Positions 9,434 to 16,013 of a DNA stretch of 64,000 bases are shown piece by piece. The notes beneath the pieces were generated by a model that did no database searches, was not told the origin of the DNA, and worked only from the letters and a program-made list of their open reading frames with translations. This stretch comes from Sphingobium sp. (lineage in GTDB: Bacteria; Pseudomonadota; Alphaproteobacteria; Sphingomonadales; Sphingomonadaceae): assembly GCA_009360885.1 (NCBI GenBank), contig SPEL01000003.1, forward strand, positions 310,001 through 374,000. The letters are read 5' to 3'. Each line of letters starts with the position of its first letter. The first letter of the stretch is position 1. The position numbers were made by a program, and so were the translations under genes.

Positions 9434-9817
9434 TTATTCATTCACCATCGACATGGCCATATCCATCAGCCGGTGCGTCATCGCAACTGCCAGCTTCTCA
9501 TCCACATCAGGCTGGTCCGATATCGCGCGCGCCATCGCCTCGCTCCACTGCCGCGCAACCTCTGGCGTGATTGGCAAAGGGCGATGCAGTGACATCATGC
9601 AAATTTTGCGGTCAAACCATGTTTTCGGCCCACCCAGCCACGCTGAGAGAAACTCCGTCAGCCCAGCCCTGACACCGGAGAGATCATCCTCATGGAGCGC
9701 CCGCAACTCGCCATAGGTCTCTTCCTCATCCATCAGTCGATAGAAACGATCAACAATCGCCCGCACTACGGCATCCCCGCCCAGCATTTCATAGGGGGTG
9801 ACGGAATTTAAATCCAT
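9434..9817 (-). CDS. Truncated haemoglobin, group II-like (127 aa)
   Basis: A small haem protein of the 2-on-2 globin family, binding O2 or NO in the cytoplasm. Typical features are VDRFYRLMDEE near the B helix, then WLGGPKTWFDR and LHRPLPITPE, where the His is the probable proximal haem ligand and PITPE opens the next helix. Length and pattern match group II (trHbO). I chose ATG 9817 (MDLNSVTPYEMLGG), since the in-frame upstream ATG at 9856 adds a non-conserved tail. It stands alone between the repeat and polA. Oxygen-related regulation is possible but no FNR box is seen. Confidence 0.85.
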   Translation of the reverse strand: MDLNSVTPYEMLGGDAVVRAIVDRFYRLMDEEETYGELRALHEDDLSGVRAGLTEFLSAWLGGPKTWFDRKICMMSLHRPLPITPEVARQWSEAMARAISDQPDVDEKLAVAMTHRLMDMAMSMVNE

Positions 9818-9901
9818 GAAGGCACCTTTTTGACCAGAGGACGAGCGAAGCGCCACCCTCTATTGCAGATGCCGCCCGCCCTATCCTTGATGCGCGTCAA
9901 A

Positions 9902-14285: not shown

Positions 14286-15167
14286 GTGAGCATTCCCCCC
14301 GTTTCCATGATGACAGAAAGACGCAGACTGATTTTTGGCGCAGGCGCCGCGTTAATAGCTGCCATGACCGCCCTGCCTTCTACTCCAGCACAGGCCGCTC
14401 CCTTTCTCTCTCAACGCATGACCATGAAGCGGCGCGGCACCCTCGGCCCCGGCGGGCGGGACGTCATCCTGATTGCTGGCCTCGCCAGTGGCCCGGCCAT
14501 ATGGAATGACCTGCCTGCGTCCATGCCCGGACATAGGTTTCATCTGGTGCATATAGCTGGCTTTGCGGGGCTCCCAGTCGGAGGAAATGCGAGCGGGCCA
14601 TTACTCACTCCGCTTGTGAGCGAACTGGCCCGCTATATTGATACGCAGCCCCTGCGCGCGCCCGCTATTATCGGGCACAGCATGGGCGGCATGCTATCCA
14701 TGATGTTGGCTCTGCGCCCCACGCCCAAGATCAACCGGATAATAGTGGTGGATATGCTGCCTGAGGGCGCGGCTATGCTAGGCGGAACAGCAGGCGGCAT
14801 CGGCTTTCTGGCGGGACAACTTAATGGCTATCTCACCGGCACAAAGGCCGGACGACAGATGCTGGCCCAAATGGTGATGCAAACCCCCGGCGCGCAGGAT
14901 AGTGACCCTCAGGTCATCGCGCAGGCATTGACTGAACTAGGCCAGATCAACCTTCGCCCGCGGCTAGGCTCCATCACCTGCCCGATGCAGATTATCTATG
15001 CCCTCCCCAATGACAAGGAAATGGCCGCCGCCCAGCGCCAGCGTTATCAAAGCGCTTATGCCAATGCACGCAGCGCAGTGCTGACCCCCATAGGCCCCAG
15101 CGGCCATATGATTATGCAGGATCAGCCCGAAAAATTTAAAACCCTCGTTCAAAAATTTTTAAAATGA
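14286..15167 (+). CDS. Exported alpha/beta hydrolase (293 aa)
   Basis: Serine hydrolase fold: nucleophile elbow GHSMGG (about residues 134-139), preceded by the oxyanion region LIAGLASGPAIWND and followed by a late GHMIMQDQPEKF box with the catalytic His. The N-terminus TERRRLIFGAGAALIAA and the AQA site near residue 37 look like a twin-arginine signal, so export to the periplasm is likely. The GTG at 14286 has GAGGA eight bases upstream. ATG 14307 is an alternative start. Substrate unknown. Confidence 0.8.
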   Translation: MSIPPVSMMTERRRLIFGAGAALIAAMTALPSTPAQAAPFLSQRMTMKRRGTLGPGGRDVILIAGLASGPAIWNDLPASMPGHRFHLVHIAGFAGLPVGGNASGPLLTPLVSELARYIDTQPLRAPAIIGHSMGGMLSMMLALRPTPKINRIIVVDMLPEGAAMLGGTAGGIGFLAGQLNGYLTGTKAGRQMLAQMVMQTPGAQDSDPQVIAQALTELGQINLRPRLGSITCPMQIIYALPNDKEMAAAQRQRYQSAYANARSAVLTPIGPSGHMIMQDQPEKFKTLVQKFLK

Positions 15168-15182
15168 GAAAATCTCATATTA

Positions 15183-15224
15183 TTGATTCAGATCAACGCA
15201 GCAATAATTGAACAGGCATATACC
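15183..15224 (+). promoter_or_regulatory. Perfect FNR/Dnr-type box with class-II promoter spacing
   Basis: TTGATTCAGATCAA at 15183-15196 matches the FNR/FixK/Dnr consensus TTGAT-N4-ATCAA in all ten conserved bases. Its centre is at 15189.5. A -10-like TATACC occupies 15219-15224, which puts the box at -41.5 relative to a start near 15231, the standard class-II activator position. No protein gene follows on the plus strand. The transcript would be the small RNA candidate. The box also contains a GANTC (GATTC). Confidence 0.6.
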
Positions 15225-15230
15225 AACATC

Positions 15231-15339
15231 AGACAGACGAGAGAGACACCCTTTCTTTCTGTCGAAGGCGTTTCCCACGCCTTCTCCTCCTCGGCACTTC
15301 ACAGGGCGCGCCTGATTTCAGGTTGCGCCCTTTTTTTTT
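15231..15339 (+). ncRNA. Candidate trans-acting small RNA with anti-Shine-Dalgarno motif
   Basis: About 109 bases run from the predicted start to a T9 tract with no credible reading frame. A perfect eight-base stem GAAGGCGT/ACGCCTTC (15264-15271 and 15277-15284, five-base loop) is followed directly by CTCCTCCTC (15284-15292), able to pair with ribosome-binding sites, as in known alphaproteobacterial CUCCUC small RNAs. An intrinsic terminator ends it. The upstream FNR-type box suggests induction under low oxygen. The 5' end is inferred from promoter spacing only. Confidence 0.55.
15304..15339 (+). terminator. Strong intrinsic terminator
   Basis: GGGCGC (15304-15309) pairs with GCGCCC (15325-15330), with an inner CCTG/CAGG pairing, followed by nine T residues (15331-15339). 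It ends the small RNA candidate and possibly read-through from the alpha/beta hydrolase. Confidence 0.85.
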
Positions 15340-15356
15340 CATTCCACTAATCACTC

Positions 15357-16013
15357 TTAATTCATTTTTTGATTGCACTTCATCTTCAGCAGTAATGTAA
15401 ATGCAGAGGCACCAGAGAGCATTCCCCCGCCCGTCATGAGGACATTAGCCAGCAGCAGTCCGACCAAAAATACCGCCCAGCCCAACAGGCCAGCCAATAT
15501 TGCTAATCTCTGTTCGGTCCATTTTTCGACAGACTTCGCCCAATATGACCGCAATGCGAACAAAAAAACGACGATCGAGAGCATGACCGCCCCGAACAAA
15601 ACCACCTGATGAGGGAGAGAAACACCTCCCCTCTCGCTTTGCACCAGCCCAAAGGTAATCGGGCTAAGCCACAATGCCAGGCCAAGCAATATTCCAGCCA
15701 AAGCAGAGAGCGAGAGACACACCGCCGCCAGCCGCGACACCCCCATCAAAGGCCAGAAGCGCCCGAAGAGAAACCCCGCACCTCCCCCAACACAAAGAGC
15801 AACTGCGATTTCTGCCATATCGAGAAACTTATGCGTGGAAATAGTAAGGACAATGGCCAGCGCAAAAGCGGCTGCGCCCAACCAGAAACCAGCCTTACCC
15901 GCCTGAGGCTTTCCCCCAAGCAGGAAGAGTAAGACCAACAAGAACAGAAGGAGAGAGACTGACGCGCCAATAAGCAGGGGCAAAGGTATCAACAATGATG
16001 GCACCATCATCAC
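15357..16013 (-). CDS. Polytopic membrane protein (218 aa), weakly transhydrogenase-like
   Basis: Six or seven hydrophobic segments cover nearly the whole protein. The segment AEIAVALCVGGGAGFLFGRF with the following MGVSRLAAV recalls part of the membrane domain of NAD(P) transhydrogenase subunit beta, but the nucleotide-binding domain is absent and the match is only by eye. It overlaps the upstream small membrane gene by four bases (16010-16013), so the two should be translated together and may form one complex. Function unknown. Confidence 0.6.
   Translation of the reverse strand: MMMVPSLLIPLPLLIGASVSLLLFLLVLLFLLGGKPQAGKAGFWLGAAAFALAIVLTISTHKFLDMAEIAVALCVGGGAGFLFGRFWPLMGVSRLAAVCLSLSALAGILLGLALWLSPITFGLVQSERGGVSLPHQVVLFGAVMLSIVVFLFALRSYWAKSVEKWTEQRLAILAGLLGWAVFLVGLLLANVLMTGGGMLSGASAFTLLLKMKCNQKMN

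Follow-up and report, generated by a model that had tools for sequence, protein, structure and literature searches.

What is encoded in the short intergenic stretch behind an alpha/beta hydrolase gene of Sphingobium sp., and does it answer to oxygen? The stretch, positions 15183 to 15339, lies in a window of 64,000 nucleotides (positions 310,001 to 374,000 of contig SPEL01000003.1, assembly GCA_009360885.1; all coordinates below are those of this window), and a prior sequence-only reading had proposed that it holds an FNR-controlled small RNA (sRNA) directed against Shine-Dalgarno sequences. We consider it likely that the locus is a free-standing, trans-acting anti-Shine-Dalgarno-type sRNA gene switched on by an oxygen sensor of the FnrL/FnrN type, and its features suggest that it is probably a real low-oxygen regulator. 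This reading is carried by an FNR box correctly spaced from a -10 element, a predicted RNA structure with an anti-Shine-Dalgarno-like motif, the joint conservation of these elements in related genomes, and a sensor gene in the source genome, all evident from sequence and comparison. The locus and its flanks are laid out as follows.

15183..15196, plus strand: FNR box TTGAT-TCAG-ATCAA (TTGATTCAGATCAA), an exact palindrome whose centre, 15189.5, falls at -41.5 of the predicted start
15219..15224, plus strand: -10 element TATACC, identified by sequence, with -12/-11 kept among relatives' promoters
15231..15339, plus strand: predicted sRNA of ~109 nucleotides (fold z -6.5), its start at 15231 being predicted
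15232..15263, plus strand: predicted 5' stem-loop, found in the long type of RNA only
15264..15284, plus strand: predicted second hairpin of 8 base pairs, GAAGGCGT-TTCCC-ACGCCTTC
15284..15292, plus strand: CTCCTCCTC, anti-Shine-Dalgarno-like and mostly unpaired by predicted pairing probabilities
15303..15339, plus strand: predicted intrinsic terminator with a T9 tail (stem 15303-15331)
14286..15167, plus strand: alpha/beta hydrolase gene, upstream and co-directional (Pfam PF12697, E 9.6e-13)
15357..16013, minus strand: convergent downstream gene, with PNTB similarity below the Pfam cut-off

The predicted RNA folds at -49 kcal/mol, compared with -26 kcal/mol for shuffled sequences (z -6.5; 0 of 200 shuffles as good), into three stems with an open CTCCTCCTC / CUCCUCCUC stretch just before the terminator, and it contains neither ATG nor GTG, the one TTG (at 15323) lying within the terminator. 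The ~109 non-coding bases, eight-base hairpin and T9 terminator that the sequence-only reading had described are borne out by this fold and the lack of ATG and GTG, and its perfect box, placed at -41.5 by TATACC, likewise stands, with the start itself predicted; it had missed the 5' stem at 15232-15263 and the kinship with suhB/alpha-r8 RNAs taken up below. A leader of the downstream gene (15357-16013) was ruled out, that gene being convergent.

The promoter and its candidate regulator

Chance counts in the window give a first measure of the box: one strict TTGAT-N4-ATCAA box was observed against 0.07 expected under a first-order Markov model of the 64 kb, two relaxed boxes (TTGAY-N4-RTCAA) against 0.185, and five boxes against 1.96 when one mismatch was allowed. 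Conservation is far stronger evidence than these counts, and a chance palindrome is ruled out by the persistence of the box after the hydrolase gene in 52 of 83 genomes together with a conserved -10 element.

We aligned 48 distinct promoters, ungapped and anchored on the box; having the box was the criterion for inclusion, which makes its invariance a matter of construction, whereas the TA of the -10 element was not selected for and stands out. Position -12 is T in 69% and position -11 is A in 98% of the 48, a partial A-G-C edge is kept at -34 to -32, a pyrimidine occupies -1 in 92%, and no -35 element appears in the alignment apart from the box and the A-G-C edge. Judged by its sequence, this anatomy is that of a class II FNR-activated promoter, and a set of some 50 natural promoters that share box and -10 but differ at almost every position in between would help define this promoter class in alphaproteobacteria. 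The window box and its placing at -41.5 of the predicted start also agree with the Fnr consensus of Sphingopyxis granuli, given in excerpts of PMC7713065 as TTGAc/t-N4-g/aTCAA at or near -41.5.

The only HTH_Crp_2 match above the Pfam cut-off in the source genome, which is ~80% complete, is an FnrL-like protein (L242), whose best NCBIfam match is FnrL at 213 bits, below that model's cut-off of 300. It has a recognition helix ETVSRR and cysteines at 4, 7, 15, 103 and 167, the first four of which we take to be candidate iron-sulphur cluster ligands. Two weaker HTH_Crp_2 matches in the same genome look, by eye, AsnC- and GntR-type. Alternatively, the promoter could be real but answer to a different Crp/Fnr regulator that recognizes this box, for instance FixK or a Dnr/NnrR-type sensor of nitric oxide, in response to a signal other than oxygen. 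In Sphingopyxis granuli, FnrN and FixK, whose recognition helices are similar, are each reported to function as Fnr (excerpts of PMC7713065), and box position 5 is C in 83% of the promoters compared, not T as in the window; this alternative nevertheless seems unlikely to us, given that the sole match over the cut-off is FnrL-like with candidate cluster cysteines and that the two weaker matches appear to belong to other regulator types.

For the FnrL/FnrN-driven sRNA gene that we favour, we infer transcription, an oxygen response, an involvement of Hfq, targets and a sign of regulation along the following lines. As oxygen falls, the iron-sulphur form of FnrL would bind the box at -41.5 and, at a class II promoter that has no conserved -35 element, activate RNA polymerase; transcription would stop at the terminator of the RNA itself, with Hfq probably binding the U tail; and the open CUCC-rich stretch would mimic the 3' end of 16S ribosomal RNA (rRNA), pair with the ribosome-binding sites of chosen messenger RNAs (mRNAs) and lower their translation, so that FNR would gain a repressing arm. 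Should this hold, translation in these bacteria would be repressed directly by their oxygen regulator, by way of a mimic of the ribosome tail.

Joint conservation at the orthologous place

We located the hydrolase gene at E 1e-30 in 83 of the 94 genomes of the genus and read ~400 bases downstream of it in all 83 (a second hydrolase match of G077, with identical scores, was left out of the counts). Ten named records encode the hydrolase: eight from Sphingobium, one from Novosphingobium and one from a Sphingomonadales metagenome-assembled genome. An exact TTGAY-N4-RTCAA box lies within ~50 nucleotides after the gene in 52 genomes, and in 49 of these 52 (49 of the 83) it is followed by an RNA with a hairpin, a CUCC stretch and a terminator. 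Box, stem and CTCCTC-type motif are hence kept jointly in these 49 genomes, which is the check that the sequence-only reading had itself proposed, and its FNR-type class II promoter, sRNA architecture and anti-Shine-Dalgarno-like motif find support in sequence and comparison alike.

Nine of the 49 RNAs are of a long type with the extra 5' stem seen in the window and 40 are of a short type that lacks it; in the other eight long-type RNAs this stem is present with a different sequence in each. The T-run lies 112-126 or 150-176 nucleotides from the box start in most relatives, CTCC lies at least 28 nucleotides before the 3' end in all 49, the most open CTCC copy has a mean unpaired probability of at least 0.8 in 48 of 49, and exact CTCCTC is present in 39 of 49. 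Compensatory changes affect 5 of 16 pairs in the short type (22 RNAs aligned of 40) and 10 of 28 pairs in the long type (7 aligned of 9), with a single compensatory C-G to U-A change in the second hairpin among those 7. Within the long type, the stretch CTCCTCCTCGGCACTT (window 15263-15302) is invariant in 8 of 9 RNAs and the loop TCTTCCC in 7 of 9, a degree of conservation suggestive of a specific target or of another seed.

Two models were used to look for the RNA: R1, built from three sequences and blind to the promoter, and R2, a model of the short type. Among the 31 of 83 genomes without an exact box, the RNA is kept only in G014, behind a box with two mismatches (R2 63.8 bits); in the other 30 the hydrolase strand yields no R2 match at E 0.1. 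Besides L167, described below, weak R2 matches in this survey lie on the opposite strand (L177, L179) or further off (L171). In one genome with no hydrolase match (G069), box and RNA (L264) instead stand between a beta-lactamase-like gene and a FAD_binding_2/Succ_DH_flav_C gene, which we take to be perhaps nadB. The sequence-only reading had named loss of box and stem beside retained flanking genes as the finding that would speak against it, and this is what 30 of the 83 genomes present; in those genomes box and RNA are gone together, 49 keep both, one has the RNA with a degenerate box, and three have the box before a coding frame.

These counts also bear on the alternative that the region is no more than the tail of the hydrolase mRNA, its 3' untranslated region and terminator, with the box a leftover or a chance palindrome. 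The RNA does directly follow the hydrolase gene in the same direction, but 30 hydrolase genes have no RNA behind them, G069 keeps box and RNA at another place, and the -10 element is kept at class II distance; we rejected this explanation on the first two grounds and consider it very unlikely. Still more improbable is a role of the box in driving a short reading frame or the gene downstream: the window RNA is without ATG or GTG and the downstream gene is convergent, although the three remaining boxes of the 52 do precede a protein-coding frame and not an RNA. One of these three, in G043 (L167), is followed by a 57-codon membrane-protein-like frame and then by CTCCTCC and a terminator, with an R2 match of 22.6 bits on the same strand. 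The arrangement in G043 could possibly represent a 3' untranslated precursor or a descendant of the sRNA.

Model scans, other genera and translation starts

Returning to the sRNA gene that we favour, R1 gave 33 matches in the genus, and in the 32 examined (one, G051, C1 249966, lay outside this set) an exact box stands upstream only of hairpin-CUCC-terminator RNAs; within a subset of 23 matches, 18 have neither box nor such an RNA. Applied to short regions (48 of the 49 RNAs, L209 with E 0.15 being excluded, plus the G014 region), R1 matched in place in 48 of 49, the miss being L257 (G021), and in 45 of 46 once its three source sequences were set aside; four antisense terminator matches were not counted. 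A plain pattern search for CTCCTC 35-65 nucleotides after a box found 45 places in 39 of 94 genus genomes (48 rows, 3 of them repeating a place) and 1 for the reversed pattern, whereas a displaced spacing of 135-165 gave 15 places, spread over 14 of the 94 genomes, and 2 when reversed.

Across 298 family genomes, R1 matched in 71 at E 0.1 and R2 in 22, with an exact box at 2 of the 21 R2 loci examined (L264, L267). A single-gap pattern matched 25 times, in 23 of the 298, and its reverse 3 times; of these loci L112 and L118, both in the genus, were folded. Since the R1 and single-gap scans of the family gave little, close sequence relatives were found only in the genus and it is the architecture that is wider. 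A wider pattern, in which the box was combined with CTCYYC and a T6 run under two spacing ranges, was searched in 278 family genomes and matched in 10, of which 8 lie outside the genus, in five genera; reversed patterns matched in none of the 278. All eight outside-genus loci show, by eye and predicted fold, a box, one or more hairpins, CTCYCC and a terminator, CTCYYC and T6 being present by selection as parts of the search; in L285 the hairpin is weak. Seven of the eight are recovered by R2 in the expected place at E <0.05, and L283 weakly.

The settings of these eight loci differ. Three, from three genera, directly follow the end of a moaE or moaE-like gene (L288 by Pfam, L290 and the L283 fragment by similarity), which makes this a second conserved location, and two (L284, L285) adjoin a convergent, hemN-like radical-SAM gene, with Pfam Radical_SAM in both and HemN_C below cut-off in L284 only. 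In another genus, the suhB-type sRNA of L289 (1501-1652) has an exact FNR box as well as a TTGCAA palindrome in front of it, an arrangement by which a single promoter may integrate carbon and oxygen signals. We see the case as evenly balanced for the broader proposal that FNR in sphingomonads repeatedly recruited anti-Shine-Dalgarno sRNAs at separate places: behind the hydrolase gene in Sphingobium; downstream of moaE in three genera; in a further genus, both beside a HemN-like gene and elsewhere; and, in another, ahead of a suhB-type copy. On this proposal the oxygen regulon would include a general arm of translational repression that mimics the 16S rRNA tail and was assembled several times, perhaps from 3' regions, as the order of box, small frame, CTCCTCC and terminator in one genome might illustrate.

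Several observations weigh against an FNR-driven anti-Shine-Dalgarno sRNA. The source genome is incomplete, and the RNA is missing from over a third of the genomes examined; with 31 of 83 genomes lacking an exact box, and 30 of these also the RNA, it must be dispensable. Fisher's test gives a very strong association of box and RNA, but it disregards shared descent, and its p value is not to be taken at face value. When 30 loci of the CTCCTC pattern were folded, a T5 run was present in 21; most of the 9 without one are not sRNAs, so the count of 45 places is an upper bound. Among 30 R1 family loci listed, none of the 29 besides the window's own has an exact box within 160 bases upstream, and for the most part they look like plain terminators or copies of suhB. 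The single-gap pattern is less frequent per genome in the family than the displaced-spacing control is in the genus. Finally, at a crudely selected set of 43 translation starts, the open stretch paired no better than shuffled seeds (-11.8 vs. -11.9, standard deviation 0.95) and, in this crude test, only slightly better than at mid-gene sites (-11.8 vs. -10.1).

The second best of these 43 starts belongs to an isocitrate-lyase-family gene (PF00463, start 34451), whose ribosome site GGAGGAG complements CUCCUCC of the sRNA; despite this site, the set of 43 as a whole shows no pairing enrichment.

Kinship with suhB-type and other known small RNAs

Escherichia coli FnrS, Neisseria AniS and Pseudomonas PhrS are sRNAs induced by FNR or ANR, and Rfam holds a model of the E. 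coli FnrS family. The window RNA resembles all three in being short and lying behind a predicted FNR-type promoter; a cmscan of 15100-15420 at E up to 1 listed only RF00519 and no match to the E. coli FnrS family. Our comparison with the literature covered open-licence PubMed Central papers, several of them in excerpts. An FNR-linked sRNA in a sphingomonad is not new as such: an sRNA named FnrS of Sphingopyxis granuli TFA, said to target fnr (Pacheco Dominguez and others, Biosaia 2021), is cited in an excerpted review (PMC13414033), and the terms 'sRNA' and 'small RNA' are absent from the excerpted main text of the Sphingopyxis Fnr paper (PMC7713065). The sequence-only reading had known of no such RNA described in sphingomonads, a remark to be qualified in light of that citation. 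Sphingopyxis FnrS, which we know from the citing review alone, may or may not be of the same family as the window RNA, and our finding raises the question whether it is.

Among alphaproteobacterial RNAs, PcrZ of Rhodobacter sphaeroides is a low-oxygen-induced sRNA that depends on PrrA and FnrL (excerpts of PMC8139620). Like PcrZ, the window RNA is an alphaproteobacterial candidate low-oxygen sRNA; unlike PcrZ, which according to the same excerpts has a PrrA site in its promoter and possibly indirect FnrL control, its conserved element is an FNR box at -41.5. The CCUCCUCCC sRNAs of Rhizobiales (SmelA075, SmelA099) and AbcR carry an anti-Shine-Dalgarno motif thought to act at ribosome-binding sites (PMC3927594, PMC7143759), and the window RNA shares a motif of this type. 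In SmelA075 and SmelA099 the motif lies in hairpin loops, whereas here it lies in an open linker, and an FNR box, present at the window RNA, goes unmentioned for SmelA075, SmelA099 and AbcR in the excerpts of those two papers.

The closest kinship is with the suhB/MmgR/alpha-r8 family (RF00519). The window matches the RF00519 model at 27.6 bits in the right place and strand, with a gathering score of 41; of 20 FNR-box RNA loci scanned, 11 match in place at E up to 5, the best at 35.9 bits, and plain membership was ruled out with all 20 below the gathering score. R2 in turn matches 4 of 5 suhB copies tried (L008, L009, L010 and L030, not L020) at 19-32 bits. Like suhB and alpha-r8 RNAs, the window RNA has, by predicted fold, a hairpin, an open CU-rich stretch and an intrinsic terminator in this order. 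It differs in having CUCCUCCUC / UUCUCCUCCUCGG in place of the alpha-r8 core UUUCCUCCCU (PMC12559287), with relatives varying, in not being adjacent to an FGase gene, and in its promoter, an exact FNR box being found in the 250 bases upstream of suhB at 0 of 30 loci (the best RF00519 match per genome, L008-L037). Hfq-assisted pairing in 5' untranslated regions is reported in excerpted papers both for SisA, an alpha-r8 RNA of Caulobacter (PMC12559287), and for SuhB of Sphingopyxis granuli acting on thnR (PMC6563040). The window RNA may thus work like the alpha-r8 group and may descend from it, yet be wired to FNR.

This kinship opens a further explanation, in which the RNA, instead of pairing with ribosome-binding sites, competes with suhB-type sRNAs for Hfq or targets, or is a sponge target, as SisA-D are of CrfA in Caulobacter. 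Each of the 94 genus genomes has 3-12 RF00519 matches at E 0.01, at least one of them over the cut-off (some of these may be FNR-box RNAs), CrfA sponges four alpha-r8 sRNAs according to excerpts of PMC12559287, and the crude test at 43 starts was null. However, CrfA is a G/A-rich partner, whereas the window RNA is itself CU-rich like suhB and cannot pair with the CU-rich suhB core because it carries the same CU-rich sequence, and we think this role quite unlikely.

Upstream of the suhB-type loci L008-L037 we noted, by eye, recurrent TTGCAA-like half-sites, often palindromic, followed by TTCGCACTTGCA-like sequence; we take the half-sites to be possibly PhaR/AniA sites. In Sinorhizobium, MmgR is repressed by AniA (excerpts of PMC7143759). 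The window's only other relaxed FNR box, TTGACGCGCATCAA (9887-9900, minus strand), lies just after polA and ~70 bases ahead of a truncated-haemoglobin gene (Pfam Bac_globin; start near 9817, minus strand), which, going by this arrangement, is likely an FNR target.
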